Below, piece by piece: positions 1,693-64,000 of a stretch of 64,000 bases of DNA. The notes under the pieces are model-generated. The model saw only the letters and a program-made list of their open reading frames with translations. It searched no databases and was not told where the DNA came from. Source of the stretch: Geodermatophilus pulveris (GTDB lineage Bacteria > Actinomycetota > Actinomycetes > Mycobacteriales > Geodermatophilaceae); assembly GCF_900188375.1 (NCBI RefSeq), contig NZ_FZOO01000011.1, forward strand, positions 1-64,000, given 5' to 3'. The translations under genes and the position numbers were made by a program. Every line of letters starts with the position of its first letter. The stretch's first letter is position 1.

Positions 1693-1711
1693 GCAGCCGC
1701 CCGCCGGCACC

Positions 1712-2584: not shown

Positions 2585-2602
2585 CGGTTCGGAGGAACTG
2601 AC

Positions 2603-3229: not shown

Positions 3230-3241
3230 CCCTCCGCATCG

Positions 3242-3281
3242 GGACGGGTCGAGTGCGCGCGTGTCGGGCGCTCGACCCGTA
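3242..3281 (+). terminator. hairpin after clpP2
   Basis: The arms GACGGGTCGAG and CTCGACCCGT form a hairpin about 12 bases after the clpP2 stop. The remaining 220 bases up to clpX hold no convincing gene; a promoter for clpX is expected there but no operator was recognised. Confidence 0.55.
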
Positions 3282-3508
3282 CCGTCGGAGGACGCGGGGT
3301 GCACCACTGTCGGCGCCGCACCCGCCGGGCGAGTCATCACCCGGCGGGGTCGGTACCGGGAGGTACGGTCGGCGAGCGTTCGACCCCGGCCCCGTCGCCG
3401 GGAGGAGGGCCTCGCCGAGAGCGGGGCCGAGCACGGGACACCAGCACCAGTTCACAGGCAGGCACCTGATCCGGGAGCCTGGAATCCCCCCGAGGTGGAG
3501 GTCAGCAG

Positions 3509-4780
3509 GTGGCACGAATCGGTGAGAGCGGTGACCTGCTCAAGTGCTCGTTCTGCGGGAAGAGCCAGAAGCAGGTCAAGAAGCTCATCGCTGGCCCCGG
3601 GGTCTACATCTGCGACGAGTGCATCGACCTCTGCAACGAGATCATCGAGGAGGAGCTCTCGGAGTCGTCGGACCTCAAGTTCGACGAGCTGCCGAAGCCC
3701 AAGGAGATCCACGACTTCCTCGAGCAGTACGTCATCGGGCAGGACAAGGCCAAGCGGGCCCTGTCGGTCGCGGTCTACAACCACTACAAGCGGGTGCAGG
3801 CCGGCGGCGCGGGCGGCCGCGACGACTCCGTCGAGCTGGCCAAGTCCAACATCCTGCTGATGGGCCCGACCGGCTGCGGCAAGACCCACCTCGCGCAGAC
3901 CCTGGCCCGGATGCTCAACGTCCCCTTCGCCATCGCCGACGCGACCGCGCTCACCGAGGCCGGCTACGTCGGTGAGGACGTCGAGAACATCCTGCTCAAG
4001 CTGATCCAGGCCGCCGACTACGACGTCAAGCGGGCCGAGACCGGGATCATCTACATCGACGAGGTCGACAAGATCGCCCGCAAGAGCGAGAACCCGTCGA
4101 TCACCCGCGACGTCTCCGGCGAGGGCGTGCAGCAGGCGCTGCTGAAGATCCTCGAGGGGACGACGGCCTCGGTGCCCCCGCAGGGCGGCCGCAAGCACCC
4201 GCACCAGGAGTTCATCCAGATCGACACGACGAACGTGCTGTTCATCGTGGGCGGCGCCTTCGCCGGGCTGGAGAAGATCATCGAGCAGCGGGCCGGCAAG
4301 CAGGGCATCGGCTTCGGCTCGGAGGTCCGCTCCAAGAAGGAGATGGACGAGGCCAACACCTTCGCCGAGGTCATGCCCGAGGACCTGCTGAAGTTCGGCA
4401 TGATCCCGGAGTTCATCGGCCGGCTGCCGGTCATCACCAGCGTCGAGAAGCTCGACCGCGACGCGCTGATGAACATCCTCACCGAGCCGAAGAACGCCCT
4501 GGTGCGCCAGTACCGGCGGCTGTTCGAGCTCGACGGGGTGGAGCTGGAGTTCACCGACGACGCGCTGGAGTCGATCGCCGACCAGGCCATCCTCCGCGGC
4601 ACCGGCGCCCGCGGCCTCCGCGCGATCATGGAGGAGGTGCTGCAGTCGGTGATGTACGACGTCCCCAGCCGCGACGACGTCGCCTCCGTGGTGATCACCC
4701 GGGAGGTCGTGCTGGAGCACGTCAACCCGACGATCGTGCCCCGCAAGCCCAGCCGCGCCCCCCGCGAGAAGTCGGCCTAG
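3509..4780 (+). CDS. clpX: ATP-dependent Clp protease ATP-binding subunit ClpX
   Basis: The 423-residue AAA+ unfoldase starts with a zinc-binding domain (Cys13, Cys16, Cys35, Cys38), followed by Walker A GPTGCGKT near residue 119, Walker [10 protein letters not shown] near residue 181 and the sensor and substrate-binding loops ([17 protein letters not shown]). It delivers substrates to ClpP1P2. The GTG start has GGAGGT 5' to it. The gene ends in TAG, which matters because this organism carries a tRNA predicted to read UAG. Confidence 0.97.
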
Positions 4781-4798
4781 CAGGCCGACCCCGCGCTG

Positions 4799-4835
4799 AG
4801 CGAGCCCGTCCCCGACCACCGGGGGCGGGCTCGCT
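4799..4835 (+). terminator. terminator of clpX
   Basis: The perfect arms AGCGAGCCCG and CGGGCTCGCT with a GC-rich loop start 19 bases after the clpX stop codon. Confidence 0.75.
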
Positions 4836-4853
4836 GTCGTCCGGGGCGGGAGC

Positions 4854-4902
4854 GTGTGCGCCGGGGCCCCGTTCCACCGTCGCGAGTGGGGCCCGGGCGC
4901 AC
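4854..4902. repeat. long GC palindrome, copy 1 of a shared hairpin
   Basis: The arms GTGCGCCGGGGCCCC and GGGGCCCGGGCGCAC form a long imperfect palindrome. Almost the same arm sequence recurs in the hairpin after rne at 22289-22335. It may be a second terminator or a small dispersed palindromic repeat. A single CCGTCCACAG motif follows at 4929-4938, close to the next gene. Confidence 0.45.
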
Positions 4903-4987
4903 TCCGTCGCTGTCCACCGCGCCGGCCGCCGTCCACAGACCCGCCGACGGCGACTCCCGCGGCCCCGGCCGTGCCGAGGCTCGGCGC

Positions 4988-5908
4988 ATGACCCACGACC
5001 CTGCTGCCCTCCTCGGCCCGGACGGGTGGGCCACCTGGGAGGCGCTCACCGCCCGCGTCGGGCGCGGGACCGTCACCCGCCTCGTCCGCTCGGGGCGGGT
5101 GGTCCGCCTCCAGCCCGGCGTCTACGCGCTGCCGGGCCCGGCCCGCGACTGGCGGCTCCGGATGGAGGCCGCGGTGCACGCCTGCGACGGCGTGGTCAGC
5201 CACCGGTCCGCCCTGGCGCTGTGGGGGCTCGCCCCGCCCGGTGGTTCGGTGCACCTGACGGTGGCGTGCACGCGGAGCGGCCGGGGCACCGCGGGCGTCG
5301 TCCTGCACCGCACGCGGCACCTCGACGACAGCACCCGGCGGGTCGACGGTCTGCCGGTGTCCTGCCCGGAGCGGGCCATCGTCGACGCCTGGGGCTCCCC
5401 GGCGGGCCTGAGCCGCGCCGACGTGCGGGCGGCCGCCATCGACGCCGTCCGACGGAGGCTGTGCGGGCCGCGCGAGCTGTGCCGGGAGGTCGAGCGCCGG
5501 CCGTGCCTGCCCGGGCGGGCCGAGCTGGTGGACCTGGTCCGGCTGCTGGCGGAGGGGTGCCGCAGCGAGCTGGAGATCTGGGGCTGCCTGAGGGTGCTGC
5601 GCGGGCCGGGCATGCCACGGTTCACCCAGCAGCGCCGGATCGAGGTGGCGGGGGAGACGTTCCTCCTGGACGCCGCCTACGACGAGGTGCAGCTCGCGGT
5701 CGAGATGGACGGCGCGGCCTGGCACGGCTCCCGGGCGCAGCGCGAGCAGGACATCCGGCGGGACGCGCTGGTGGCGACGGTCGGGTGGCAGACCCTGCGG
5801 TTCGGCTTCCGCCGGATGACCACCGAACCGCAGCGCTGCCGCGCGGAGGTCCTCGCCGTCCACACCGCCCGCCGGCGCCTGTTCGCCGCCGCCGAGCGTG
5901 GGCGCTGA
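4988..5908 (+). CDS. AbiEi-type antitoxin-domain / DUF559 nuclease-fold protein
   Basis: The 306-residue product has an N-terminal winged-helix-like segment (residues 8-45, ending VVRLQPGVYAL) typical of the AbiEi antitoxin domain family. A C-terminal DUF559 region follows (from about 215), with the endonuclease-like pattern VEMDG..WH....Q..DI.RDALV...GWQTLRF. DUF559 has a Vsr-like PD-(D/E)XK fold. Such proteins are common as stand-alone genes in actinobacteria and their role is unproven. No toxin partner is adjacent, so a toxin-antitoxin role is not supported. The ATG at 4988 begins the conserved region; an open frame extends farther upstream but through the palindrome. Confidence 0.75.
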   Translation: MTHDPAALLGPDGWATWEALTARVGRGTVTRLVRSGRVVRLQPGVYALPGPARDWRLRMEAAVHACDGVVSHRSALALWGLAPPGGSVHLTVACTRSGRGTAGVVLHRTRHLDDSTRRVDGLPVSCPERAIVDAWGSPAGLSRADVRAAAIDAVRRRLCGPRELCREVERRPCLPGRAELVDLVRLLAEGCRSELEIWGCLRVLRGPGMPRFTQQRRIEVAGETFLLDAAYDEVQLAVEMDGAAWHGSRAQREQDIRRDALVATVGWQTLRFGFRRMTTEPQRCRAEVLAVHTARRRLFAAAERGR

Positions 5909-49923: not shown

Positions 49924-50687
49924 CCGGGGTGCACGAGGCCGCCGGCGCGCTCGTCGACGCGCTCACCGGCTACGCCCGGGACCCCGACCCGGACCTCACG
50001 CTCGTCGTCGTCCACCACGGCGGCAAGCGCAACGAGGCCCTGGTCAAGGCGTTCACCGCCGCGGGAGCGGCGGTCGACGACTGCCCGAAGGTCACCTCCG
50101 TGAGCGACCGGATCGCCTTCGTGCGCAACGAGGTCCGCTCGGCCGGCGGCCGGGTCACCGCCGACGCCGCCGCCGCGCTCGTCGAGGCGGTCGGCGCGGA
50201 CCTGCGGCAGCTGTCCTCGGCCGCCACCCAGCTGGTCTCGGACTTCGGCGGCACCGTCGACGCCGACGCGGTCGCCCGGTTCCACCGCGGCCAGGCCGAG
50301 GTCACCGGCTTCAGCGTCGCCGAGCGGGTGCTGGTCGGCGACCGGCAGGGTTCCCTGGAGCTGCTGCGCTGGGCGCTGCAGCGCGGCGTCGCCCACGTGC
50401 TGATCGCCGACGCCATCGCCGACGGGGTGCGCACCGCGGCGCGGGTGTCCTCGGTGCGCAGCAGCAACCCCGGCGACCTCGCCCGCACGCTGAAGATGCC
50501 GCCCTGGAAGGTGAGGAAGGCCCAGGCGCAGGCCCGGGGCTGGAGCATCGAGGGCCTGCAGCAGGCGATCGGCGTGGCCGCGGAGCTCAACGCCGACGTC
50601 AAGGGCGCCGCCGCCAGCGCCGACTACGCCCTGGAGCGGGCGATCCGCCGGATCGTCGCCATCCGCCGGGAGACCGGCCGCCGCTGA
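49704..50687 (+). CDS. holA: DNA polymerase III delta subunit
   Basis: The 327-residue clamp-loader subunit has the HolA pattern: LRAVVGEEELLRARAV at the start, VTGVHEA, and the C-terminal LARTLKMPPWKVRKAQAQARGW. The GTG at 49704 lies 220 bases inside the comEC reading frame in another frame. CACCAT lies six bases before it, fitting the leaderless pattern. Confidence 0.92.
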   Translation: MAAAPPAPTSRLRAVVGEEELLRARAVSAVRAAVLERHPDAELHELAAQGLPVGELADVLAPSLFGAHRVVVVTGVHEAAGALVDALTGYARDPDPDLTLVVVHHGGKRNEALVKAFTAAGAAVDDCPKVTSVSDRIAFVRNEVRSAGGRVTADAAAALVEAVGADLRQLSSAATQLVSDFGGTVDADAVARFHRGQAEVTGFSVAERVLVGDRQGSLELLRWALQRGVAHVLIADAIADGVRTAARVSSVRSSNPGDLARTLKMPPWKVRKAQAQARGWSIEGLQQAIGVAAELNADVKGAAASADYALERAIRRIVAIRRETGRR

Positions 50688-50703
50688 GGGTCTCCGCGAG
50701 ACG

Positions 50704-50739
50704 CGACGAGCCCCGTCCCGCGGGGGGAGGGGCTCGTCG
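50704..50739. terminator. bidirectional terminator between holA and rpsT
   Basis: The arms CGACGAGCCCC and GGGGCTCGTCG flank a GC loop between the convergent holA and rpsT genes. Confidence 0.75.
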
Positions 50740-50765
50740 GAGACCGCGCGGGCGCGGCCGACAGG

Positions 50766-51032
50766 TCAGCTGGCGAGGTCGGTCAGCCGCCTGGCCATGC
50801 CGGACTTGCGGTTCGCGGCCTGGTTCTTGTGGATGACGCCCTTGCTGGCGGCCTTGTCCAGCGCCTTGCTGGCCGTCTGCAGCGCGGTCGTGGCGGCGGC
50901 GGCGTCACCGGCGTCGGCGGCGGTGCGGAAGCGGCGGACGGCCGTCTTCAGCGCGGACTTGACCGCGACGTTGCGCTGGCGCGCCTTCTCGTTGGTCTTG
51001 TTCCGCTTGATCTGGGACTTGATGTTCGCCAC
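50766..51032 (-). CDS. rpsT: 30S ribosomal protein S20
   Basis: The 88-residue basic helical protein begins [20 protein letters not shown] and ends [20 protein letters not shown], the S20 signature. It lies on the strand opposite to holA and lepA, as in other actinobacteria. The start is GTG, with GAGGCTC upstream. Confidence 0.97.
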
Positions 51033-51209
51033 GCGTGAGCCTCGGGTGTCTCGCAGGGAGTGGGGTCTGACGTGCGTCCGGACGGCGTGCGTCAGCGGAC
51101 CGGCCTGCCAGGCTACCAGCGCCCTCCGCGCCGACCCACCCGGCGGGTACGCGCCCGCCCGGCATCGGTGGCGCGACGACGCGACGGGCCGTGGGACGAT
51201 GGGCGCACT

Positions 51210-53036
51210 GTGACGACTCCCGCCTCCACCGATCCCGCCCGGATCCGGAACTTCTGCATCATCGCCCACATCGACCACGGCAAGTCGACGCTGGCCGACC
51301 GGATGCTCGAGGTGACCGGGATCGTCGAGGGACGGCAGATGCGGGCCCAGTACCTCGACCGGATGGACATCGAGCGCGAGCGCGGCATCACCATCAAGGC
51401 GCAGAACGTTCGCCTGCCGTGGACGGTCGGGGAGACCGACCACGTGCTGCACATGATCGACACCCCGGGCCACGTGGACTTCACCTACGAGGTGTCCCGG
51501 TCACTGGCGGCCTGCGAGGGCGCGGTGCTGCTGGTCGACGCCGCCCAGGGCATCGAGGCGCAGACGCTGGCCAACCTGTACCTGGCGCTGGAGAACGACC
51601 TCACCATCATCCCGGTGCTCAACAAGATCGACCTGCCGGCGGCCCAGCCGGAGCGGTACGCCGCGGAGATCGCGCACATCATCGGCTGCGACCCCGACGA
51701 GGTGCTGCGGGTCAGCGGCAAGACCGGCGAGGGCGTGCCCGAGCTGCTCGACCAGATCGTCGCGCAGGTCCCGGCGCCGGAGGGCGAGGCCGAGGCCCCC
51801 GCCCGGGCGATGATCTTCGACTCGGTCTACGACATCTACCGCGGCGTCATCACCTACGTCCGCGTGGTCGACGGCCGGATCTCCGCCCGCGAGCGGATCA
51901 AGATGATGTCCACCGGCGCCACGCACGAGCTGCTGGAGATCGGCGTCATCTCCCCGGAGCCCAAGCCGGTCGCCAGCCTCGGGGTCGGCGAGGTCGGCTA
52001 CTTCATCACCGGGGTGAAGGACGTCCGCCAGTCCCGCGTCGGCGACACCGTGACGCTGCAGCACCGGCCGGCCGCCGAGCCGATCGGCGGGTACAGCGAC
52101 CCCAGGCCGATGGTCTACTCCGGCCTGTACCCGATCGACGGCAGCGAGTACCCGCTGCTGCGCGAGTCGCTGGACAAGCTGCTGCTCAACGACGCCGCGC
52201 TGACCTACGAGCCGGAGACCTCCGCCGCGCTCGGCTTCGGCTTCCGGGTCGGCTTCCTCGGCCTGCTGCACCTGGAGATCGTCCGCGAGCGGCTGGAGCG
52301 CGAGGCGGGCATCAGCCTGATCTCCACCGCGCCCAACGTCGTCTACCGGGTGGTCATGGAGGACGGCACGGAGATCACCGTGACCAACCCCAGCGACTGG
52401 CCCAGCGGCAAGATCGACCGGGTCTACGAGCCGATCGTCAACGCCACGATCATCGCGCCGACCGACTACACCGGCGCGATCATGGAGCTGTGCCAGAGCC
52501 GGCGCGGCCAGCTCGGCGGCATGGACTACCTGAGCGAGTCCCGGGTCGAGCTGCGCTACACGCTGCCCCTCGGCGAGATCATCTTCGACTTCTTCGACGC
52601 GCTGAAGTCGCGCACCCGCGGCTACGCCAGCCTGGACTACTCCGAGGCCGGCGAGCAGGAGTCCTCGCTGGTCAAGGTGGACATCCTGCTGCAGGGCGAG
52701 GCCGTCGACGCGTTCAGCGCGATCGTGCACAAGGACAAGGCGTACGGCTACGGCGTGATGATGGCCGGCAAGCTGCGCGAGCTCATCCCGCGCCAGCAGT
52801 TCGAGGTGCCCATCCAGGCCGCCGTCGGCTCCCGGGTGATCGCCCGCGAGACCGTCCGCGCCATCCGCAAGGACGTGCTGGCCAAGTGCTACGGCGGTGA
52901 CATCACCCGCAAGCGCAAGCTGCTGGAGAAGCAGAAGGAGGGCAAGAAGCGGATGAAGATGGTCGGCCGGGTCGAGGTCCCGCAGGAGGCGTTCGTGGCC
53001 GCGCTGTCCACCGCCGAGCCCACCAAGGGCAAGTGA
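51210..53036 (+). CDS. lepA: elongation factor 4 (LepA)
   Basis: The 608-residue GTPase has [10 protein letters not shown] near residue 19, [16 protein letters not shown], and the LepA-specific C-terminal domain ending [19 protein letters not shown]. It remodels stalled or initiating ribosomes. The GTG start lacks a Shine-Dalgarno; GACGAT is nine bases upstream. Confidence 0.97.
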
Positions 53037-53683
53037 CTGCCCGCGTCGAGGCCGTCTGCGTGGCCGCCGCCGGGGTGCTGGAGATCCCCGGCCGCGGCCC
53101 GACGCGCAGCGCCATCGACAAGCGGCCGGTGCCCGGGCGGGTCGCCGTCGGTCCGCTCGGCCTGGACGGCGACACCCAGGTCAACCGCAAGCACCACGGC
53201 GGCGAGGGGCAGGCGGTCTACGCCTACGCCGGTGAGGACGCCGCCTGGTGGGAGCGGGAGCTGGGCCGCGACCTGCCGGCCGGCCGGTTCGGGGAGAACC
53301 TCCGGACGGCGGGCATCGACCTGACCGCCGCGCTGCTGGGGGAGTGCTGGGAGGTCGGCACCGCGCTGGTCGAGGTGACCGCCCCGCGCACCCCGTGCGC
53401 CAAGTTCCAAGCGTACTGGGGGGTGCCCCGGCTGGTGCGGCGGTTCACCGGGCGCGGCGCGCCCGGGGCCTACCTGCGCGTGCTGCGCCCCGGTGACGTC
53501 GGCGCCGGCGACCCGCTCACCGTCGTCTCCCGCCCGGACCACGGGGTGACCATCGGCCTGGCGTTCCGGGCGCTGCTGACCGAGCGCGACCGGCTGCCCG
53601 AGCTGCTCCCGGCGCTGTCCGCCCTGCCGCACAAGGACCAGCCGGCCGTCGCCGAGGCGATCGCGGCCCGCACCACGCCGTAG
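53033..53683 (+). CDS. MOSC domain-containing protein
   Basis: The 216-residue protein of the YiiM type has a MOSC core ([24 protein letters not shown] near residue 41) and the conserved Cys in [14 protein letters not shown] proteins bind molybdenum cofactor or carry sulfur. The GTG start overlaps the lepA stop, and the gene ends in TAG. Confidence 0.9.
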
Positions 53684-53722
53684 CCCCGCGCGGCGGGGGG
53701 CCACCGCGCAGGACGTCCTCCG

Positions 53723-54262
53723 TCACGCGGCCAGCGCCGCGACGAGGTCGCGGCGCAGCGCGGTGAGGTCCACGCCGCGGGCGCGCAGCACCTCCGCCGC
53801 CGGGCCCCGGTCCTCGCGGAGCAGTCCGAGCAGGACGTGCGTGTCGGTGATGCGGTCGTGCCGCAGCGCCAGCGCCTCGCGCAGCGACAGCTCGAGGGCC
53901 TTCTTCGCCCCCGGGGTGAACCGCAGGTGGGCGCGGCCCGCCCGCTGCCCGCCGCGCCGGGCCTCCAGCGCGCCCGGCCCGAAGGCCGCCTCCACGACGT
54001 CCCGGACGGCGTCCAGGTCGATGCCCAGCGTGCGCAGCGCGTCGGCGTCCAGGTCGCCCCCGCCCGCCCGCTGCCGGACGGCGGCCGCCACCCCGTCGCG
54101 GGTCAGCCCGTACCGGCCCAGGACGACGGCCGCCGGCGTGTCCTGGCCGAGCAGCGCCAGCAGCAGGTGCTCGGTGCCGACGGAGTCGTGCCGCAGCGTG
54201 CGGGCCTCCTCCTGCGCCGAGACGACGACCTGCCGGGCCTCGGCCGTGAACCTGTCGAACAC
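53723..54262 (-). CDS. double Clp_N-domain protein without ATPase
   Basis: The 179-residue protein consists of ClpC/ClpA N-domain repeats (FDRFTAEARQVVVSAQEEAR and DSVGTEHLLLALL; then FTPGAKKALELSLREA and ITDTHVLLGLL). There is no AAA+ module. It resembles stand-alone ClpC N-domain proteins of actinobacteria, which may sequester Clp adaptors, substrates or damaging ligands. It follows the HTH gene by three bases, so it is in one operon with it. Confidence 0.88.
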   Translation of the reverse strand: MFDRFTAEARQVVVSAQEEARTLRHDSVGTEHLLLALLGQDTPAAVVLGRYGLTRDGVAAAVRQRAGGGDLDADALRTLGIDLDAVRDVVEAAFGPGALEARRGGQRAGRAHLRFTPGAKKALELSLREALALRHDRITDTHVLLGLLREDRGPAAEVLRARGVDLTALRRDLVAALAA

Positions 54263-54265
54263 CGG

Positions 54266-54499
54266 TCATCCCTCCCGTCGGAGCAGCCGCCGGCCGCCCG
54301 CGTGCTTCTTGTGCACCGCCTGCCGGGTGACGCCCAGGTGCTGGGCGACCTGCTCCCACGTCCAGCCCTGGCCGCGGGCGTTGTCCACCTGCAGGGCCTC
54401 CAGCCGCTCGACCAGGTCGCGCAGCGCCCGGACCGCCCGCAGCCCGACCGCCGGGTCCCGGCTGCTGGCCGCGGAGGCCACCTGTGCCGTGTCTGCCAT
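54266..54499 (-). CDS. small helix-turn-helix DNA-binding protein
   Basis: The 77-residue protein has a single HTH (GWTWEQVAQHLGVTRQAVHKKH) near the C-terminus. It is the first gene of the pair with the Clp_N protein. Two palindromes directly upstream of its ATG are probably its own operator. A longer start (GTG at 54529) would lie within the palindromes and is less likely. Confidence 0.82.
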   Translation of the reverse strand: MADTAQVASAASSRDPAVGLRAVRALRDLVERLEALQVDNARGQGWTWEQVAQHLGVTRQAVHKKHAGGRRLLRREG

Positions 54500-54502
54500 G
54501 CC

Positions 54503-54547
54503 GTCAACTGTGGTTGACGTGCGGGACATCTGTCAACCTGCTTTGAC
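54503..54547. promoter_or_regulatory. tandem GTCAA-N6-TTGAC palindromes
   Basis: GTCAACTGTGGTTGAC (54503-54518) and GTCAACCTGCTTTGAC (54532-54547) share arms GTCAA and TTGAC, with centres 29 bases apart. They lie just upstream of the HTH gene and overlap TTGACA, a possible -35. Autoregulation by the HTH protein is the likeliest reading. Confidence 0.65.
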
Positions 54548-54553
54548 GCGCGG

Positions 54554-55005
54554 TCAGCGGCGGCGGATGTCGTGCCGGCCGCCCCGCGGGGAGCGCCGCG
54601 GCGGCCGCCGCCCCGCGGCGTCCTGCCGGGTCACCCGCTGCTGGACGACCGTCCACGCCAGGTCGTGCCAGACCGTGCCGGTCGCCCCGACCCGCGCGCC
54701 GCGGTGCCGCCGCCACAAGCCGCGCAACGGGCCGGACGCCGGTGCGGAGCCGGCCGGGTCGTCGGCCAGGCCGAGCAGCCGGGGGGCCCGCTCGAGCAGC
54801 CAGCCCGCCCCGTCACCGGGGGCGGTGACGTCCACCTGCGTGCAGCCGGCGTCCCAGGCCACGCGCGGCACGCCGGGCCCCTGCGGGTCGGCGTCGCGCG
54901 GGTGACGGCGCCGGTCCCCAGGCGCACCGTCGGGTCGCCCGGCAGCGCGGCCAGGGGGCCGAGCACCAGCCGCGGGTGGACGCCGTCCAGGGCCAGGACC
55001 GTCAC
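54554..55005 (-). pseudogene. truncated, frameshifted DNA-3-methyladenine glycosylase (AlkA-like) remnant
   Basis: From the GTG at 55005 the frame reads LALDGVHPRLVLGPLAAL and LGTGAVTRA. Near 54900 the reading shifts one frame to GVPRVAWDAGCTQVDVTA, LLERAPRLLGL and VWHDLAWTVVQQRVTR, the N-terminal half of AlkA-like glycosylases. It ends soon after, so the catalytic HhH-GPD part is missing. The gene is thus broken twice. Confidence 0.65.
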
Positions 55006-55039
55006 CGGGCGAGGATGGCAGCACCCGGTGACCGACGGG

Positions 55040-56017
55040 TCAGAGCGTGAAGACGATCTTCCCCGCGGTACGTCCCTCGTGCATCCGCGCGAAGCCCTCG
55101 CGGGCCTGCGCCAGTGGCAGCTCGACGTCGATGACCGGGCGGACGCCGGTCACCGCGCACATCCGCACCAGCGACTCGAGCTCCTCGCGGGTGCCCATCG
55201 TCGACCCGATCACCGACAGCTGGGTGAAGAAGACCCGGTTGAGCTCGGCGCCGGGGTTGAAGCCGGTGGTCGCGCCCGAGGTGACGATGACGCCGCCGGG
55301 CCGCAGCGACTTCACGCTGTGGCTCCAGGTCGCCTCGCCGACGGTCTCCATGACGCCGTCCACCCGCTCGGGCACCCGCGCGCCGGTCTCGAACGCCTGG
55401 TCCGCGCCGAGGGCCAGCGCGGCCTGCCGCTTCTCCTGACTGCGCCCGGTCACCCACATCCGGAAGCCGGCCGCCCGCCCCAGCACGACCAGCGCGGTGG
55501 CCACGCCACCGCTGGCGCCCTGCACGAGCACCGTCGCGCCCGGCCGCAGGCCGGACTTCACGAACAGCATCCGGTAGGCGGTGAGCCACGCGGTGGGCAG
55601 GCAGGCGGCCTCGGCGAAGGACAGCTCGGCCGGCTTGGGCACCAGGTTGCCCCGCGGGACGGTGACCCGCTCGGCCATCGTGCCCTGGTGCAGCTCGGAG
55701 AACAGCGTCCGCTTGGGGTCCAGCGTCTCGTCGCCGCGCCAGCCGGGGCTGGCCACGACGCCGTGCACGATCACCTCGTTGCCGTCCTCGTCCAGCCCGG
55801 CCGCGTCGGTGCCCAGCACCATCGGCATCCGCTCGGCCGGCAGGCCCACCCCGCGCAGGCTGAACAGGTCGTGGTGGTTGAGCGAGGCGGCCCGCACCTG
55901 CACCGTCGTCCAGCCGTCGGGCACCTCCGGCTCGGGCCGGTCGCCGACCTCCAGGACGGAGAGCGGGTCCTCGGGGGCGGGCGTCGAGACGAAGGCGGCG
56001 AGCATGGTCGCGAGCAT
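55040..56017 (-). CDS. medium-chain dehydrogenase/reductase, zinc-independent type
   Basis: The 325-residue protein has a GroES-like N-domain (AASLNHHDLFSLRG) in which the usual catalytic Cys is Asn, no structural zinc Cys cluster, and a Rossmann motif VQGASGGVATAL. It is therefore probably an NADPH-dependent quinone-oxidoreductase-like enzyme. The substrate is unknown. It starts two bases after the upstream fusion gene. Confidence 0.88.
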   Translation of the reverse strand: MLATMLAAFVSTPAPEDPLSVLEVGDRPEPEVPDGWTTVQVRAASLNHHDLFSLRGVGLPAERMPMVLGTDAAGLDEDGNEVIVHGVVASPGWRGDETLDPKRTLFSELHQGTMAERVTVPRGNLVPKPAELSFAEAACLPTAWLTAYRMLFVKSGLRPGATVLVQGASGGVATALVVLGRAAGFRMWVTGRSQEKRQAALALGADQAFETGARVPERVDGVMETVGEATWSHSVKSLRPGGVIVTSGATTGFNPGAELNRVFFTQLSVIGSTMGTREELESLVRMCAVTGVRPVIDVELPLAQAREGFARMHEGRTAGKIVFTL

Positions 56018-56018
56018 G

Positions 56019-56816
56019 TCACCGCGGCCTGGGGGGTCGCACGGCGACAGCGGCGGCGGGGCCGGCGGCCGCCCGCCGGTCGAGGACGGCCCGCTCGGCC
56101 GGGTTGCCGCTGAGCTCGGCGGCCCGCCGCCAGGCCGCGGCCGCGCCGGCGGCGTCCCCGGCCCGCTCCAGCAGGTCGGCGTGCGCGGCGTGCAGCGGCA
56201 CGTACCCGGCCAGCCGGCCGTCGGCGAGCACCGGCGCCAGCAGCGCCAGCCCCGCCTCCGGGCCCTCGGCCCGCCCGACGGCGACCGCGCGGTTGACCGT
56301 GACGACCGGGGAGGGCGCCAGCCGGTCCAGCAGCCGGTAGAGGTCGGCGATGCGCGCCCAGTCGACCCCCGCGGCGTCCGGCGCGGCCGCGTGCAGGGCG
56401 GCGATGACGGCCTGCACCTGGTACGGGCCGACCGGGGACCGGCCGGTGGTGGCCAGCAGCGCCCGGGCCTCGGCGACGGCGGCGGCGTCCCACCGGCTGC
56501 GGTCCTGCTCGGCGAACGGGACGGGGCGTCCCTCGCCGTCCTCGCGGGCCGCCGCGCGCGAGTGCTGCAGCAGCATCAGCGCGAGCAGCCCGGTCGTCTC
56601 GGCGTCCCCGTCGGCGAACGGGCCGTCGGTGAGCAGCCGCTGCCCGTCGCGCACCCGCACGGTGGTCGCCGTCCCGCTGTCCTGCAGGCCGGCGCCGCCG
56701 ACCAGGATGGCGGCCTCGTGCAGCGCGAGGGTGTAGGCGGCCCAGTCGGCGGGCTGCGCGGCCTGCGGGTCGTCCCAGGCGGCGGGGTCGTGCGCCAGGA
56801 CCATCAGGTACTGCAT
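56019..56816 (-). CDS. DGPF (YCII)-domain fused to ECF42-type sigma C-terminal extension
   Basis: The 265-residue product joins two normally separate neighbours. Residues 1-69 are the N-terminal part of a YCII/DGPF protein (MQYLMVLAHDP to LLTDGPFAD). From residue 70 on it is the TPR-like C-terminal extension of ECF42 sigma factors (ETTGLLALMLL; VPFAEQDRSRWD; PSPVVTVNRAVAVG). The rest of the DGPF domain and sigma regions 2 and 4 are absent. An in-frame deletion across two adjacent genes explains this best. It cannot act as a sigma factor; whether it is functional is unknown. Confidence 0.8.
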   Translation of the reverse strand: MQYLMVLAHDPAAWDDPQAAQPADWAAYTLALHEAAILVGGAGLQDSGTATTVRVRDGQRLLTDGPFADGDAETTGLLALMLLQHSRAAAREDGEGRPVPFAEQDRSRWDAAAVAEARALLATTGRSPVGPYQVQAVIAALHAAAPDAAGVDWARIADLYRLLDRLAPSPVVTVNRAVAVGRAEGPEAGLALLAPVLADGRLAGYVPLHAAHADLLERAGDAAGAAAAWRRAAELSGNPAERAVLDRRAAAGPAAAVAVRPPRPR

Positions 56817-56930
56817 CGTCGTCCTCCTCGGTCGGGGGACGCCCCGGTCGGTGCGTCCTGCCCTGACGACGCGCCGCGGGAGCTCCGGAGGACACCCTGC
56901 CGCCGATCCCCCCGGTGTGGGCGGATCGAC

Positions 56931-57938
56931 TCAGCGGACGACGACCACGTGCTCCCCGCGCGGGACGAACTCGCCGATCACCGGGGCACCGGGGACCTCG
57001 CCGCCGAGCAGCAGCCCCCCGGAGGTCTGCGCGTCGGCCAGCAGCAGCGCCTCGTCCTCGCCGACGGCGGACAGGTCGGCGTGCGGCCGCACCCAGTCCA
57101 GGTTGCGCCGGGTGCCGCCGGAGACGAAGCCCTCGGCCAGCGCCGCCCGCGCCCCGGCCAGGTAGGGGACGGCGGCGGCGTCGACCACCGCGGTCACCCC
57201 GCTGGCCCGGGCCATCTTGTACAGGTGGCCGAGCAGGCCGAACCCGGTCACGTCGGTGCCCGCGCGGATCCCGGCGGCCACCGCGGCGCGGCCGGCCTCC
57301 CGGTTCAGCGCCGTCATGGCGGCCACCGCCTCCTCCGACACCTCGCCGGTGGCCTTCATCCGGTTGTTGAGCACGCCGATGCCCAGCGGCTTGGTCAGCG
57401 ACAGGGCCGTCCCGGCGACGGCGGCGGAGTTGGTGATCACGCGGTCGACGTCGACGACGCCGGTGACCGCCATGCCGTACTTGGGCTCGGGGTCGTCGAT
57501 GGAGTGCCCGCCGCCGACGTGGCAGCCGGCCTCCTGGGCGGCCGCCAGCCCGCCGCGCAGCACCTCGGCGGCGAGCTCGGCGGGCAGCACGTCGCGCGGC
57601 CAGCCGAGCAGGTTGACCGCGACCACCGGGGTGCCGCCCATGGCGTAGACGTCGGACAGCGCGTTGGCCGCCGCGATCCGGCCGAAGGTGTGGGCGTCGT
57701 CGACGACGGGGGTGAAGAAGTCGGTGGTGAGCACGATGCCCTGCCCCCCGGCGATCCGGACGACGGCCGCGTCGTCGCCGTCGTCCAGGCCGACGACCAG
57801 CTCGGCGGCCGGGTCGGTGGGGCCGGTCGCGGTCAGGCCGGCCACCACCGCCTCCAGCTCCCCGGGCGGGATCTTGCAGGCGCAGCCGCCCCCGTGGGCG
57901 TACTGGGTGAGCCGGGTGCGTGCGGGCGCGGTGGTCAC
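56931..57938 (-). CDS. selD: selenide, water dikinase (selenophosphate synthase)
   Basis: The 335-residue enzyme has the active-site loop GGGCACK with Cys19 at the position of the catalytic Cys/Sec and Lys22, the VVGLDDGDDAAV metal site, and LTTDFFTPVVDD. It makes selenophosphate for Sec-tRNA. It uses Cys rather than Sec at the catalytic position. On the reverse strand TACGGT (57945-57950) lies six bases before the GTG, overlapping the selC promoter. Confidence 0.96.
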   Translation of the reverse strand: MTTAPARTRLTQYAHGGGCACKIPPGELEAVVAGLTATGPTDPAAELVVGLDDGDDAAVVRIAGGQGIVLTTDFFTPVVDDAHTFGRIAAANALSDVYAMGGTPVVAVNLLGWPRDVLPAELAAEVLRGGLAAAQEAGCHVGGGHSIDDPEPKYGMAVTGVVDVDRVITNSAAVAGTALSLTKPLGIGVLNNRMKATGEVSEEAVAAMTALNREAGRAAVAAGIRAGTDVTGFGLLGHLYKMARASGVTAVVDAAAVPYLAGARAALAEGFVSGGTRRNLDWVRPHADLSAVGEDEALLLADAQTSGGLLLGGEVPGAPVIGEFVPRGEHVVVVR

Positions 57939-57944
57939 GGCTCC

Positions 57945-57954
57945 ACCGTAGGCT
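57945..57954. promoter_or_regulatory. overlapping bidirectional -10 elements for selD and selC
   Basis: ACCGTAGGCT holds TACGGT on the reverse strand (57945-57950) and TAGGCT on the forward strand (57949-57954). Each lies six or seven bases from the selD start or the selC 5' end, so both transcripts would start at the first base of the gene. Confidence 0.6.
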
Positions 57955-57961
57955 CGGCGGT

Positions 57962-58057
57962 GGAGGCGTCAGGGCGCCTGGTGGCCCCCGCGGCCTCTAA
58001 AGCCGACGTGGCCGAGCACCTCGGTCAGGCGGGTTCGATTCCCGTCCGCCTCCGCCA
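57962..58057 (+). tRNA. selC: tRNA-Sec with anticodon CUA (predicted to decode UAG)
   Basis: The 96-base gene includes CCA. The acceptor arms are GGAGGCG and CGCCUCC, followed by discriminator G. The D arm is extended with loop UGGU, the variable arm is 7 bp (GGCCGAG/CUCGGUC), and the T arm is GCGGG-UUCGAUU-CCCGU; together these mark it as tRNA-Sec. The anticodon loop is CUCUAAA (57995-58001), so bases 34-36 are CUA, not UCA. UAG-reading tRNA-Sec is known from Geodermatophilus and Blastococcus. The anticodon stem has a G-A mismatch at its outer pair and the D stem a C-C mismatch. It lies between selD and selA-selB. Confidence 0.93.
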
Positions 58058-58082
58058 GCTCGTCGTCGTCCGGGACGGCGAC

Positions 58083-58121
58083 GTCCGTCGCGGAGCCGGC
58101 CCGCCCGGCTCCGCGACGGAC
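58083..58121 (+). terminator. terminator of selC
   Basis: A perfect 17-bp stem (arms GTCCGTCGCGGAGCCGG and its complement, loop CCCGC) lies 25 bases after selC and just before TACCCT (58127-58132), the -10 of selA. Confidence 0.8.
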
Positions 58122-58140
58122 CCACCTACCCTCGGCGGCG

Positions 58141-59451
58141 ATGAGCACCGACCCCCGCCGGCGGGTGCCGCGCACCGACACGCTGCTGGCCGACCCCCAG
58201 CTGGCCGCCGCCGCCGGCCGGCTGGGCCGCGACCTGGTCAAGGCCGCCGTCCAGGAGGTCCAGCAGCGCGTCCGGGACGGCGCCGTCGCCCCGGACGACG
58301 CCGTGGGCGCCGTGCTGGCCGGCCTGCCGGCGACGCCGAGCAGCCTGCGGCCGGTGCTCAACGCGACCGGCGTGCTGGTGCACACCAACCTCGGCCGGGC
58401 ACCGCTGTCGGAGGCCGCGGTCCAGGCGGTCGTCGCCGCCAGCGGCACCACCGACGTGGAGCTGGACCTGGCCACCGGCCGCCGCGGCCCGCGCGGGGAG
58501 GCGGCGCTGGCCGCGCTGCGCGAGGCCGTCCCGGCCGCGGAGGCCGCGCTGGTGGTCAACAACTGCGCCGCGGCCCTGGCCCTGGTGGCCACCGCCCTGG
58601 GCGGGGAGCTGGTCATCGCCCGGGGCGAGCTGGTCGAGATCGGCGACGGCTTCCGCATCCCCGAGCTGCTGGAGGCCACCGGGGCCCGGCTGCGCGAGGT
58701 CGGCACCACCAACCGGGTGGCGCTCGGGGACTACACCCGCGCCCTCGGCCCGGGCACCGGCGCGGTGCTCAAGGTGCACCCGTCGAACTTCGTCGTCCGC
58801 GGCTTCACCCGGGCGGTCGAGGTGGCCGAGCTGGCCGCCGGCCTGGCCGGCACCGGAGTCCCCCTGGTCGCCGACGTCGGGTCCGGCCTGCTGCGCCCGC
58901 ACCCGGTGCTGCCCGGGGAGCCGGACCTGCAGACCGCGCTGGCCGACGGCGCGGACCTGGTGCTGTCCAGCGGCGACAAGCTGCTCGGCGGGCCGCAGGC
59001 CGGGCTGGTGCTCGGCCGCGCCGACCTGGTGCAGCGGCTGCGTCGGCACCCGCTCCACCGGGCGTTCCGGGTCGACAAGACGACCCTCGCCGCGCTGGAG
59101 GCCACGCTGCGCGGCCCGCGGCCGCCGGTGCAGCGGATGCTCGCCGCCGACCCCGCCGGGCTGCGCACCCGGGCCGCCGCGCTCGCCGCCCGGCTGGCCG
59201 CGGCCGGCCTGGACGCGGTCGCGGTCGACGCGCAGGCCCGCGTCGGCGGGGGAGGGGCGCCGGAGCACCCGCTGCCCAGCGCCGCCGTCTCCCTGCCCGC
59301 GGAGTTCGCCGCCCCGCTGCGCGCGGGCACCCCGCCGGTGGTCGGGTACGTCGCGGACGGCCGCACCCTGCTCGACCTGCGCAGCCTGGCGCCGGCGGAC
59401 GACGACGCGCTCGCGGCCGCGGTGCTGGAGGTGGCCCGCCGGTGGACGTGA
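58141..59451 (+). CDS. selA: L-seryl-tRNA(Sec) selenium transferase
   Basis: The 436-residue PLP enzyme has its Schiff-base Lys280 in LSSGDKLLGGPQAG, the VLNATGVLVHTNLGR block near residue 75 and VNNCAAAL. It converts Ser-tRNA-Sec to Sec-tRNA-Sec with selenophosphate. The start follows TACCCT by eight bases with no Shine-Dalgarno. It overlaps selB. Confidence 0.96.
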   Translation: MSTDPRRRVPRTDTLLADPQLAAAAGRLGRDLVKAAVQEVQQRVRDGAVAPDDAVGAVLAGLPATPSSLRPVLNATGVLVHTNLGRAPLSEAAVQAVVAASGTTDVELDLATGRRGPRGEAALAALREAVPAAEAALVVNNCAAALALVATALGGELVIARGELVEIGDGFRIPELLEATGARLREVGTTNRVALGDYTRALGPGTGAVLKVHPSNFVVRGFTRAVEVAELAAGLAGTGVPLVADVGSGLLRPHPVLPGEPDLQTALADGADLVLSSGDKLLGGPQAGLVLGRADLVQRLRRHPLHRAFRVDKTTLAALEATLRGPRPPVQRMLAADPAGLRTRAAALAARLAAAGLDAVAVDAQARVGGGGAPEHPLPSAAVSLPAEFAAPLRAGTPPVVGYVADGRTLLDLRSLAPADDDALAAAVLEVARRWT

Positions 59452-61214
59452 CGGGGATGCAGGTCATCGCCACCGCCGGGCACGTCGACCACGGCAAGTC
59501 CACGCTGGTCCGCGCGCTCACCGGCATGGAGCCCGACCGGTGGGAGGAGGAGCGCCGCCGCGGGCTGACCATCGACCTCGGCTTCGCCTGGACGACGCTG
59601 CCCTCGGGCCGCCGGCTCGCCGTCGTCGACGTGCCCGGGCACGAGCGCTTCGTCGGCAACATGCTCGCCGGCGTGGGCTCGGTGCCGGCCGCCCTGGTGG
59701 TGGTCGCGGCCGACGACGGCTGGTCGGCGCAGACGGCCGAGCACGTCGCCGTCCTGGACGCCCTCGGCGTGCGGCACGCGCTGCTCGCGGTCACCAAGGC
59801 CGACCTCGCCGACCCGGGGCCGGTGCTCGCCGACGTCCGGGAGCGGCTGGCGGGCACGTCGATGGGTGCGGTGCCTGGGGTGGCCGTGAGCGCGCCCACC
59901 GGGCGCGGCGTGCCCGAGCTGGCCGCCTCCCTGGAGGCGCTGCTGGCCGGGCTGCCCGCGCCGGACCGGGACGCGCCGGTGCGGCTGTGGGTGGACCGCG
60001 CCTTCCCGGTGAAGGGCGCCGGCACGGTGGTCACCGGCACCCTCGCCGCGGGCCGGGTCGCCGCCGGGGACCGGCTGACCCTGGGCGGCCGGGAGGTCGG
60101 CGTGCGCGGCGTGCACTCCCTCGGCCGGCCGGTCGAGCGGGCCGAGGCGACCGCGCGGGTGGCTCTGAACCTGCGCGGCACCTCCGTCGAGGAGGTCGCC
60201 CGCGGCGACGCGCTGCTCACCCCCGGCGCGTTCCGCGACACCGGCGAGCTGGACGTCACGCTGGCCCGCGAGGTCGACGACCGGCTGCCCGCCGAGGTCG
60301 TCGTGCACGTGGGCTCCGCGGCGGTCGCCGCGCGGCTGCGCCCGCTGGAGGGGTCGGCGGTCCGGCTGCGGCTGGCCGCGCCGCTGCCGCTGCGGGTCGG
60401 CGACCGGTTGCTGCTCCGGGATCCGGGTGCCCGCCGGGTGCACGGCGCCGACGTCCGGGACGTCGACCCGCCGGAGCTGCGCCGCCGCGGCGCGGCCCGC
60501 CGGCGCGCCGAGGAGCTGGCCGCCCGGCCGGACGGCGCGGCGGGGGCGGCCGCCGAGCTCGCCCGGCGGCGGTTCGTCCGCGCCCAGGACTTCGCCGCGA
60601 TGGGCTGGTCGGTGCCACCGGACGCGGCGACCGTGGGCCCCTGGCTGCTCGCCCCCGGGCTCGTGGACGAGCTGGCCGCCGCGCTGCCCGGGATCGTCGC
60701 CCGCTACCGGCAGCTGCGCCCGCTGGAGCCCGGGCCGCCGGTCGCCGTCGCCCGCCGGGCGCTGGAGCTGCCCGACGACGAGCTGGTGCCCGCCGCCGTC
60801 CGCCCCCCGCTCGCCCTGCGGGAGGGCCGGGTCGTCGCGGCGACCGCCGGCCTGCCCGGACCGGTGCAGCGGGTCGTCGACGCCGTCCGCGCCCGGCTGG
60901 CCGCCGACCCCTTCGCCGCGCCGGACGCCGAGGAGCTGCGCGCCGCCGGGCTCGGACCGCGGGAGCTGGCCGCCGCCGTGCGCGACGGGCAGCTGGTGCG
61001 GATCGCCGACGGCGTGTACCTCGCGCCCGGGGTCGCCGAGCAGGCGCGGGCCCGGCTGGCCGCCGTCCCCGCGCCGTTCACGCTGAGCCAGGCCCGCTCG
61101 GCGTGGGGGACCAGCCGGCGGGTCGCCGTCCCGCTGATGGAGTGGCTGGACGCCCGCGGCGTCACCGAGCGGCTGCCGGACAGCACCCGCCGGCTGCGGT
61201 CGTCGCCCGGCTGA
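59442..61214 (+). CDS. selB: selenocysteine-specific elongation factor SelB
   Basis: The protein of about 590 residues has an EF-Tu-like G domain (TAGHVDHGKSTL; DVPGHERFV; TKAD), beta-barrel domains (FPVKGAGTVVTGTL) and a C-terminal winged-helix region ending near ARGVTERLPDSTRRL, which should bind the SECIS hairpin. It delivers Sec-tRNA, here to UAG if the tRNA reading is right. GGAGG lies ten bases before GTG 59442; GTG 59448, giving a 4-base overlap with selA, is an alternative start. Confidence 0.95.
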   Translation: MDVTGMQVIATAGHVDHGKSTLVRALTGMEPDRWEEERRRGLTIDLGFAWTTLPSGRRLAVVDVPGHERFVGNMLAGVGSVPAALVVVAADDGWSAQTAEHVAVLDALGVRHALLAVTKADLADPGPVLADVRERLAGTSMGAVPGVAVSAPTGRGVPELAASLEALLAGLPAPDRDAPVRLWVDRAFPVKGAGTVVTGTLAAGRVAAGDRLTLGGREVGVRGVHSLGRPVERAEATARVALNLRGTSVEEVARGDALLTPGAFRDTGELDVTLAREVDDRLPAEVVVHVGSAAVAARLRPLEGSAVRLRLAAPLPLRVGDRLLLRDPGARRVHGADVRDVDPPELRRRGAARRRAEELAARPDGAAGAAAELARRRFVRAQDFAAMGWSVPPDAATVGPWLLAPGLVDELAAALPGIVARYRQLRPLEPGPPVAVARRALELPDDELVPAAVRPPLALREGRVVAATAGLPGPVQRVVDAVRARLAADPFAAPDAEELRAAGLGPRELAAAVRDGQLVRIADGVYLAPGVAEQARARLAAVPAPFTLSQARSAWGTSRRVAVPLMEWLDARGVTERLPDSTRRLRSSPG

Positions 61215-61226
61215 CCAGCTCTCCGG

Positions 61227-64000
61227 TCAGCCCTCGCCGAGTGGCGTCAACCCGATGATGCGGTCGGGCTCGCTGCCCTCCGCGCCGTCGGTCGCCCGGT
61301 GGGTGATCCAGTCCTCCACCGCGGCCAGCGCCTGCTCGACGAACGGGTGGACGGCGGCACCGCCGTGGCCCATCTCGGGGATCAGGTAGGTGCGCAGCAG
61401 GGCGTCGTCGCCCGACCGGGCGACCAGTTCCTCGTAGGCGCCGGCCTCCTTCGGCGTGACGATGGTGTCGGCCGTGCCGTGGCCGACGACGACCGGCCGG
61501 CGGAGGTCGCCGGTGAGGTCGAGCAGGCGCATCTCGGCCTGCGCTGCGGCCGGCGCCGCGTGGGCGTCCCAGGCCTTCAGCTCGTCGAGGGAGACCGTGC
61601 CGTCGCCGTCCGGGTCGTAGGTGGGGTCCCACTCGCCGATCGAGTCGCCGAGGTAGCCGACGGCGGACACGTACGCCTCCGGCCACTCGCGCTCGGAGCC
61701 CGGTGCACGGCCGACGTCGTAGGTGGAGCCCCCGCGCAGCTCGGCCGGGATCGAGTAGATGGCCGCCAGCGCGTCGGACTGCTCCGGGGTCAGCGGCGGG
61801 TCCACGTCGCCCCCGCCGGCGGCGATGACGTCGCCGATGCGCGGCTCGATGACGTCGTAGTTGCGCAGGAAGACCGGGAAGGCGCCCCACATCTCCAGGC
61901 CGGAGTTGTAGCCGTACATGCTCACCCCGCCGTCGTAGAGCTCGGGGAACGACTCGACCAGCCACTTGGTGTGGTGCCCGCCGTTGGAACCGCCGGCCAG
62001 CAGGCTGCGGTCGGGCTGCTGCCCGTAGTGGGCGGTCACCACGCCGGTGGCGTGCTGGGTCAGCTCCGCGAGGCGACGGCGGGACTCGTGGTAGGAGTCC
62101 TCCGGCTCGTCCGCGATGGTGTACCGGTTCCAGCCCTCGTCGCTGGCGGCGTAGGCGTAACCCTGGCGCAGCGCGATGTCCTTGTAGACCGCGTCGTTGC
62201 TGAACTCGTCGCCGGAGAACCCCCGGCTGGAGGTCAGCAGGCCGCCGTTCCAGTCCTCGGGCAGGGCGAGCTGGTAGGCGGCGTCACCGATGCTGCCGTG
62301 GACGTAGCGGTGACCGACCGGGTCGGCCCGGCGTTCGTCGGCGTCGACCACCGGCGTCTGGTCGGCCAGCGCCGACCCGGGGTCCACGCCCGGGCCGTCC
62401 GGCACCACGAGGACGCGCAGCCCCGGCCGGTCCCGGCCGGGGGTGGCGAACCCGACGACGTGGGCGGTCTGGTGCGAGCCGGCTCCCGCGACCACGTCGC
62501 CGACCACGGCGAGCACCTCGTCACTGCCGGCGGCCAGCAGGCGCACGTCGTGGGTCCCAGCGTCCAGGCGCAGGAGACCGCTGTCCTCACCGGTGGCGAT
62601 CCCGGTGGCGACCGTGGCCCACTCCCCGTCCGGCGTGGCGCGGACCTGGACGTCCACGGCACCCAGGTCGGGGCCGGCGTGCGCGACGCGCAGTCCCGCG
62701 GACGGTGCCCCGGGGTCGGCGGGAGCGTCCAGCACCGACAGCGCCAGCGGCACGCCGTCGCCGGTCGCCGAGCCCACGACGCCCACCGTCACCGGTTCCG
62801 CCCCGGCGGAGACGGTCCCCGCGAGCAGGGCGTGGTCGGCGGTGGTCGACGGTGCGGCCCGCACCTCGACGCGGTGCCGGCCGGGGGCCACGGGTACCAG
62901 GTCACCGAGGGTCCCGAACTCCGCCGACTCGACGACCCGCTCGCCGTCGACCCACACGTCCACCGGACCGGCGTCCGGGGCGGCGTGCACCACCCACAGC
63001 GCCCCGCTGCGGCTGGTACCGGGCAGGACGTCGCTCAGGTAGGCGGCCTGCACCGCACTGCGGGCGTCGGCGGGCAGGAGCAGCCGGTCGGCGACCAGCG
63101 CGTCGGCCGCGGCGCGCACGGCCTGCACGTACCCCTCGTGGGTGCCGTACAGGTCCTGCAGGGTGGGCCGCTCGTCGCCGTCGACGGCGTCCGCGGCGGT
63201 GCCCGCCAGCGGGACCTGCATGCCGGTCAGGCCGCACACGTCGCCGACGGTGTAGGGCTCGGCCTGCAGGTTCCACCCGGTCAGCGTCGCGGTCGGGGCG
63301 GCCACCTCGGGCAGCTCCAGGCCGCCTTCGTCGATGCCGACCGCGTCGACGCTCGGGACGCGCACGTCGTAGGGCTGCACGACGTCGGCGTGCCGCCAGT
63401 CGTCGATGATGCCCGCGTTGCCCACCACCCGGGGGCCGAAGTCACGCTCGGCCGCGGCGTTGTACAGCCCGGTGTACCCGACGCCCGGGATCGCCGGGAA
63501 CCCGGTGGCGTCCCGGTCGCTCGCGACCAGCGTCCCGCCCGCGATGGACGGCGCACGGCTCGCGGGCGGTTCCGTGCCGTCGACCACCCACTCGTCCAGC
63601 GAGACGAGCAGGGCGCGCAGCGCCGGCCCGACGTGCGTGGGGTTGCTCGCCTGCTGGCAGGTGCCGGGCGTGGGCTCCGCGTTCGCGGCCGCGAAGTGCT
63701 GGGAGCCGGAGAGCAGGTACTGGCGCACCGTGTCCGGGAGCGCGACGTCGTGGCCGAACCCGTCGGTGCTCACCAGGGACGCCTGGAACTGCCAGTACTC
63801 CGTCGAGCTGTCGGTGTGCACCACGAGGGGGTCGGTGGCCGGCCGCGTGAGGATGCCGTCCGTCCGCCCCGAGACCGGGTCCTGCCGGACCCCGTAGTTG
63901 AACGGGAAGCCGACGTAGGGCATGTAGCGGTCGCGGTGCTGCGTGGAGAACGGGTTGGGCTGGGCGAAGCGGTAGTTCAGGAACAGCTTCTGCGCCCCGG
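61227..64000 (-). CDS. large alpha/beta-hydrolase: Abhydrolase_10 + DUF4397 + esterase domain (5' end beyond window)
   Basis: The frame is open past the right edge; upstream of the first internal ATG it still reads QKLFLNYRFAQPNPFSTQHR, so the true start is outside. The visible 924 residues comprise an Abhydrolase_10-like region (PYVGFPFNYGV), two DUF4397-like beta segments (LWVVHAAPDAGPVDVWVDG; GLRVAHAGPDLGAVDV) and a C-terminal alpha/beta-hydrolase with nucleophile Ser in AGGSNGGHH, Asp in GTADTIV and His in PEMGHGG. An EF-hand-like loop (DPDGDGTVSLDEL) lies between. It is probably secreted; the substrate is unknown. Confidence 0.8.
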   Translation of the reverse strand, partial: GAQKLFLNYRFAQPNPFSTQHRDRYMPYVGFPFNYGVRQDPVSGRTDGILTRPATDPLVVHTDSSTEYWQFQASLVSTDGFGHDVALPDTVRQYLLSGSQHFAAANAEPTPGTCQQASNPTHVGPALRALLVSLDEWVVDGTEPPASRAPSIAGGTLVASDRDATGFPAIPGVGYTGLYNAAAERDFGPRVVGNAGIIDDWRHADVVQPYDVRVPSVDAVGIDEGGLELPEVAAPTATLTGWNLQAEPYTVGDVCGLTGMQVPLAGTAADAVDGDERPTLQDLYGTHEGYVQAVRAAADALVADRLLLPADARSAVQAAYLSDVLPGTSRSGALWVVHAAPDAGPVDVWVDGERVVESAEFGTLGDLVPVAPGRHRVEVRAAPSTTADHALLAGTVSAGAEPVTVGVVGSATGDGVPLALSVLDAPADPGAPSAGLRVAHAGPDLGAVDVQVRATPDGEWATVATGIATGEDSGLLRLDAGTHDVRLLAAGSDEVLAVVGDVVAGAGSHQTAHVVGFATPGRDRPGLRVLVVPDGPGVDPGSALADQTPVVDADERRADPVGHRYVHGSIGDAAYQLALPEDWNGGLLTSSRGFSGDEFSNDAVYKDIALRQGYAYAASDEGWNRYTIADEPEDSYHESRRRLAELTQHATGVVTAHYGQQPDRSLLAGGSNGGHHTKWLVESFPELYDGGVSMYGYNSGLEMWGAFPVFLRNYDVIEPRIGDVIAAGGGDVDPPLTPEQSDALAAIYSIPAELRGGSTYDVGRAPGSEREWPEAYVSAVGYLGDSIGEWDPTYDPDGDGTVSLDELKAWDAHAAPAAAQAEMRLLDLTGDLRRPVVVGHGTADTIVTPKEAGAYEELVARSGDDALLRTYLIPEMGHGGAAVHPFVEQALAAVEDWITHRATDGAEGSEPDRIIGLTPLGEG

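Follow-up and report, generated by a model that had tools for sequence, protein, structure and literature searches.

The question raised by this locus is which codon is read by the selenocysteine tRNA (tRNA-Sec) encoded within 64,000 nucleotides of Geodermatophilus pulveris (NZ_FZOO01000011.1, positions 1 to 64,000; hereafter the window), for which a first-pass annotation, made from the letters alone, had proposed the anticodon CUA and UAG as the Sec codon. The features from which the answer is built are listed below.

56931..57938, minus strand: selD, selenide, water dikinase, Cys form (HGGGCACK); TIGR00476, 380.8 bits, cut-off 125
57962..58057, plus strand: selC, tRNA-Sec with anticodon CUA, encoded CCA included; RF01852, 64.2 bits; boundaries and anticodon cta from ARAGORN
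57997..57999, plus strand: anticodon CTA (CUA); Infernal alignment, ARAGORN position 36
58141..59451, plus strand: selA, L-seryl-tRNA(Sec) selenium transferase; TIGR00474, 413.8 bits, cut-off 267.9; PF03841
59457..61214, plus strand: selB, Sec-specific elongation factor; TIGR00475, 288.2 bits, cut-off 242.25; SelB winged-helix PF09107

As had been claimed, selC combines the long variable arm and the extended D arm of a tRNA-Sec with sel neighbors, and cmscan matched RF01852 at 57962-58053 over model positions 1-91 of 91, above the gathering score of 47 (E 2e-11). In the Infernal alignment, the 7-base anticodon loop reads CUCUAAA, which places CUA at 57997-57999; the covariance model run on 57962-58057, which the annotation had proposed as a check, therefore returned a tRNA-Sec in which UCA does not occupy the anticodon, and ARAGORN likewise reads cta. 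The anticodon is thus CUA in place of the canonical UCA, and because CUA is a published variant of tRNA-Sec, this does not exclude selC from the family. The discriminator G73 and then the encoded CCA can be read from the sequence. Genome-wide, RF01852 gave eight matches at E <= 0.001, two of them above the cut-off, and the seven besides selC are named by ARAGORN as tRNAs for Ser (three), Tyr, Leu, Thr, and Met; selC is the only tRNA-Sec that RF01852 and ARAGORN found in the G. pulveris genome. The mismatches in the D and anticodon stems, singled out earlier as deserving attention, are indeed present, but they occur at the same positions in the UCA tRNAs of all three family members checked (G066, G070, and G072), which rules them out as a mark of recoding. 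Elsewhere in the window, a weak Rfam AsrC match (51243-51304; 22.2 bits, gathering score 111) lies inside an ORF that, from its translation, we take to be lepA, and it was set aside as chance.

The complete sel module was also found in one place as described: selC sits between selD, on the opposite strand, and the downstream selA-selB, and all three proteins exceed their NCBIfam cut-offs. The start of selB was placed at the ATG at 59457, a GTG at 59442 also being possible, and its product is the one SelB match over the cut-off in the genome, which thus holds selA, selB, selD, and, as its sole tRNA-Sec, one with CUA. By established Sec biology, SelA would turn Ser-tRNA-Sec into Sec-tRNA-Sec with selenophosphate supplied by SelD, SelB would bring the product to a UAG with a SECIS hairpin close behind, and a UAG without a hairpin would end translation; charging, the identity of the inserted residue, and SECIS dependence are all expected on this same footing. 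From the genomic evidence presented here, we consider it highly probable that selC belongs to a complete bacterial Sec system with anticodon CUA, in which SelB would deliver Sec at hairpin-followed UAG codons and other UAGs would serve as stops.

If UAG encodes Sec, then in-frame TAG codons would be expected at the Sec sites of selenoprotein genes, and a search of the G. pulveris genome for five families or domains yielded four such candidates in formate dehydrogenase, UGSC, and AhpC genes. The molybdopterin oxidoreductase match on contig C18 (FdhA) contains one in-frame TAG, in the context IENQARI-U-HSATVPGLGATFGRG, which we take to be the Sec site of formate dehydrogenases; the same position holds TGA in two plasmid relatives. 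One of the five AhpC/TSA matches carries a TAG, at GDW-U-PYC (AhpC-like, contig C9), and both UGSC-family matches carry one TAG each, at LAD-U-GSC and VGD-U-GSC. The latter domain (C6:14697-15104) stands in frame behind a stretch that is presumably FAD-oxidoreductase-like. An AhpD-like query also matched the genome, in a gene with no internal stop. A predicted hairpin with a stem of 7-8 bp and GU in its loop, as expected of a bacterial SECIS element, lies behind all four Sec-site TAGs, and no TGA was seen at the Sec sites of FdhA, the AhpC-like gene, or the two UGSC genes. The in-frame TAGs that the annotation had suggested looking for were therefore found, and the finding it had named as fatal, use of TGA by all selenoprotein genes of the genome, did not materialize: all four candidates from the five families or domains use TAG. 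Together with the family and plasmid comparisons described below, these sites bear out its assignment of Sec to UAG.

We also asked how UAG behaves elsewhere, using as a control the following feature of the window.

4778..4780, plus strand: TAG ending clpX; GC3-selected ORF 3470-4780 with ClpX zinc finger and AAA_2; no SECIS-like hairpin behind

Among 26 GC3-selected ORFs of the window, 23 end in TGA and three in TAG, clpX being one of the three. When a hairpin rule (stem of at least 7 bp, GU in the loop) was applied to the window, it was passed by 6 of 233 TAG triplets and by none of the three terminal TAGs. Further, in the 30 AhpC-like loci read across the family, all of which have TAG at the Sec site, the terminal stop is TAG in 14 and TGA in 16 (the latter including two loci frameshifted just behind the TAG, which were kept in this tally and left out of the hairpin listing). 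The G. pulveris gene and 13 relatives thus appear to use TAG both for Sec and as the stop within one gene. Behind 13 of these 14 terminal TAGs there is no stem of at least 7 bp; in the G. pulveris gene, an 18-bp stem behind the terminal TAG satisfies the hairpin rule and looks like a transcription terminator. Because clpX ends in TAG, and 14 of 30 AhpC-like genes do so as well, the data support the view that UAG is recoded in context rather than reassigned.

We then compared the system across 112 genomes of the Geodermatophilaceae. At E <= 1e-9, tRNA-Sec was matched in 108 genomes, with 110 matches in total; 102 were caught by one pattern, all with G after the acceptor stem, and the other eight were read separately. 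The anticodon could be read in every case and is CUA in 102 and UCA in 8, seven of the latter being in genera g5, g6, and g7 (G066, G068, G069, G070, G072, G073, and G074) and the eighth in G058, discussed below. The UCA and CUA arms differ in two anticodon bases and in the loop-closing pair (U-A versus C-G), and no intermediates were seen among the 110. Two CUA tRNAs, both counted, come from G037 (88% complete); the second of these (C25:205-296) is identical to tRNAs from genus g8 genomes and is probably contamination.

On the protein side, FdhA was found in 100 of the 112 genomes, and 118 of its 123 matches contain exactly one TAG; of the remaining five, one is a G034 fragment not covering the site, and four come from G079. 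In G079, the stretch that would contain the Sec site and the hairpin is missing from both FdhA copies (C12 and C4), with an identical right-hand border; either the assembly dropped it at a strong hairpin, or the loss is real. In the 30 FdhA loci that were read, TAG occupies the Sec codon in all 30, and the frame remains open for about 700 codons past it in every one. Similarly, 72 of 94 UGSC matches in the family have one TAG, 22 have no stop, and none has TGA; one UGSC site that was read encodes Cys. In the nine genomes of g5-g7, no FdhA match was obtained at E <= 1e-60, the UGSC matches of G066 and G072 have no internal stop, and a scan of four g5-g7 contigs for coding-like frames with one TGA returned nothing convincing, so that FdhA and UGSC searches and the four-contig scan found no TGA selenoprotein partner for the seven UCA tRNAs.

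The hairpin behind the FdhA site was compared in a covariation set of 21 distinct sequences, 19 of them from 31 family sites (the 30 loci and that of G058) and two from plasmids. All 147 cells of the 7-bp stem are paired. Pair 18-30 occurs as GU, GC, CG, and UA, and a change of GTG to GTC accompanied by GGY to GGG keeps both amino acids, as would be expected if selection acts on the RNA. Of the seven pairs, five are invariant and only one changes on both sides, and two of five measures fail to beat shuffles; given this invariance and these two measures, the evidence is good but narrow.

A further comparison is provided by homologous, canonical UGA-Sec modules on plasmids. Arthrobacter sp. YA7-1 pYA7-1a and Tsukamurella tyrosinosolvens plasmid 17 (NZ_CP110115.1 and NZ_LR134459.1, one of them typed as conjugative) share the gene order fdh, selD, selC, selA, selB and a nearly identical FdhA hairpin, and differ in that their tRNA-Sec has UCA and their FdhA has TGA. 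Identity to the window proteins is 55-62% for SelA, 49-54% for SelB, and 67-69% for SelD. Codon and anticodon differ together between the plasmids and G. pulveris, with everything else conserved. Such plasmid modules suggest that the Sec trait can move as a block. A Streptomyces anthocyanicus plasmid also has a UCA tRNA-Sec, selD, selA, and a SelB-like gene, and a pattern search found no FdhA site within 8 kb. With respect to viral carriage of the CUA tRNA, a 21-base pattern had no exact match in viral contigs, and a search of phages likewise gave no match.

Three other explanations of the locus can be weighed against these results. One is that selC encodes a tRNA-Pyl or suppresses amber codons in general, UAG being read as another amino acid throughout. 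This is suggested by ARAGORN, whose only tRNA call in the window (57962-58057, cta) is tRNA-Pyl, a label that we infer to be a consequence of the anticodon. However, selC scores as a tRNA-Sec, stands between selD and selA-selB, and does not have the structure of a pyrrolysine tRNA; Rfam ranks tRNA-Sec first, and within 50000-64000 no match to another tRNA family, Pyl included, was listed at E <= 1 when overlapping clan members were reduced to the best. Because clpX still ends in TAG, suppression throughout fits poorly as well, and we regard this explanation as exceedingly improbable.

Equally hard to credit is that the selC tRNA reads UAG and inserts serine or some other residue in place of Sec. 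tRNA-Sec is charged first with serine, and the evidence here is genomic; against this, selA and selD exceed their family cut-offs, and the two plasmid FdhA genes have Sec (TGA) at the aligned position. A decayed system, with tRNA and TAGs left over as relics, TAG acting as a plain stop, and FdhA, AhpC-like, and UGSC genes no longer intact, would accord with the use of TAG as a stop elsewhere, with the frameshifts behind the TAG in 2 of 30 AhpC-like loci, and with the absence of the site from both G079 FdhA copies. Nevertheless, TAG and hairpin are kept in all 30 FdhA loci, with compensating changes in the latter, the long open frames past the TAG are equally constant, and selA, selB, and selD are intact, which makes decay very unlikely.

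The first-pass annotation described this recoding as known, and it is indeed published for the Geodermatophilaceae: the excerpt of PMC5330540 that bears on it, citing Mukai et al. 2016 (Angew. Chem.), describes CUA tRNA-Sec in three genomes of the family, together with formate dehydrogenase, UGSC, and AhpC selenoproteins. The selC of the window joins this known type, which it resembles in its CUA tRNA-Sec, in TAG-Sec in formate dehydrogenase, UGSC-motif, and AhpC genes, and in family. What is added here is matched comparative evidence and the case of Geodermatophilus marinus described below: compared with the three genomes in that excerpt, the present survey covers 102 CUA and 8 UCA tRNA-Sec genes in 108 genomes, and it extends beyond the excerpt to a UCA/CUA border inside the family, to single genes in which TAG takes both roles, Sec codon and stop, and to a relative with both anticodons. 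In the excerpts of two further papers, UAG or Cys codons are reported to specify Sec in some bacteria (PMC8124441), and UAG-Sec is mentioned only as engineering (PMC13188914, a 2026 review). The tRNA-Sec of Aeromonas salmonicida, from another lineage, likewise has a changed anticodon but reads Cys (sense) codons, the anticodon being GCA according to the relevant part of PMC11415595 and ACA according to that of PMC5756416. In the pyrrolysine system, a CUA tRNA reads UAG as in the window, but the tRNA is a different one and SelA and SelB are absent; according to the part of PMC10778597 concerned, all UAGs are reassigned there, rather than chosen ones recoded.

The eighth UCA tRNA-Sec belongs to G058, Geodermatophilus sp. 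LHW52908 (Geodermatophilus marinus in the NCBI taxonomy), a member of the same genus as G. pulveris. This genome has a CUA tRNA-Sec on contig C11, which also carries the sole SelB match above the cut-off, as well as FdhA and UGSC genes with TAG. The UCA tRNA-Sec (81.8 bits) lies on C17 (NZ_QVQH01000024.1) in the following island.

1169-5320 of the stretch of NZ_QVQH01000024.1 examined: UCA tRNA-Sec, AhpD-like gene with TGA, JAB-domain gene, two further ORFs, and adjoining transposases

The AhpD-like gene, 315 bases from the tRNA, has TGA in CFY-U-MESH and matches TIGR01926 above its cut-off (112.6 bits) and NF041238 below its cut-off (51.7 bits against 175); the two further ORFs gave no Pfam or NCBIfam match. 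GC3 of the island genes is 0.67-0.75, compared with 0.91 for the transposase ORF that opens the contig, and further along the contig several pieces match a genome of the same genus (G053) at 79-92%. We found 67 AhpD-like relatives, G. marinus included, mostly acidobacterial and most with a closely similar hairpin; 61 of the 62 readable sites have TGA and one has TGC. A tRNA-Sec within the flank (up to 6 kb) was found in G. marinus only, and the other family genomes gave no AhpD-like match above 40% identity. Plasmids matched the island in short pieces only, the IS256 transposase and the tRNA-Sec being among the matches listed (20 of 31 records), and seven plasmid records matched the UCA tRNA alone. 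AhpD-like relatives on plasmids (130 records) are all below 60% identity and, among the 20 matches listed, at most 34%.

An acquired UGA gene that arrived with its own tRNA would be the simplest reading of this island. We lean, by a little, toward the view that G. marinus writes Sec with two stop codons, the native CUA tRNA serving its UAG genes, the UCA tRNA of the foreign-looking island serving the UGA AhpD-like gene, and both sharing one SelB; insertion sequences flank the island, which sits at the end of a contig, a setting in which misassembly or contamination can arise. If true, a selenoprotein gene would have crossed from one genetic code to another in the company of the tRNA needed to read it. 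Among the matches listed from the open-licence literature, no report was found of a single genome with both UAG- and UGA-reading tRNA-Sec, and the case is possibly new. A two-code G. marinus would allow a direct test of whether a single SelB can serve both Sec codons, and of whether differing codes block gene transfer or the barrier is circumvented when a tRNA moves as well.

UAG-Sec indicates that the Sec codon can shift while SECIS, SelA, and SelB remain, and the family offers a natural experiment in this respect, with adjacent UCA and CUA lineages, UCA/TGA modules on plasmids for comparison, and genes in which UAG would stand for Sec early and for stop late. Such tRNAs are easily missed, as ARAGORN calls selC a pyrrolysine tRNA and TAG reads as a stop.
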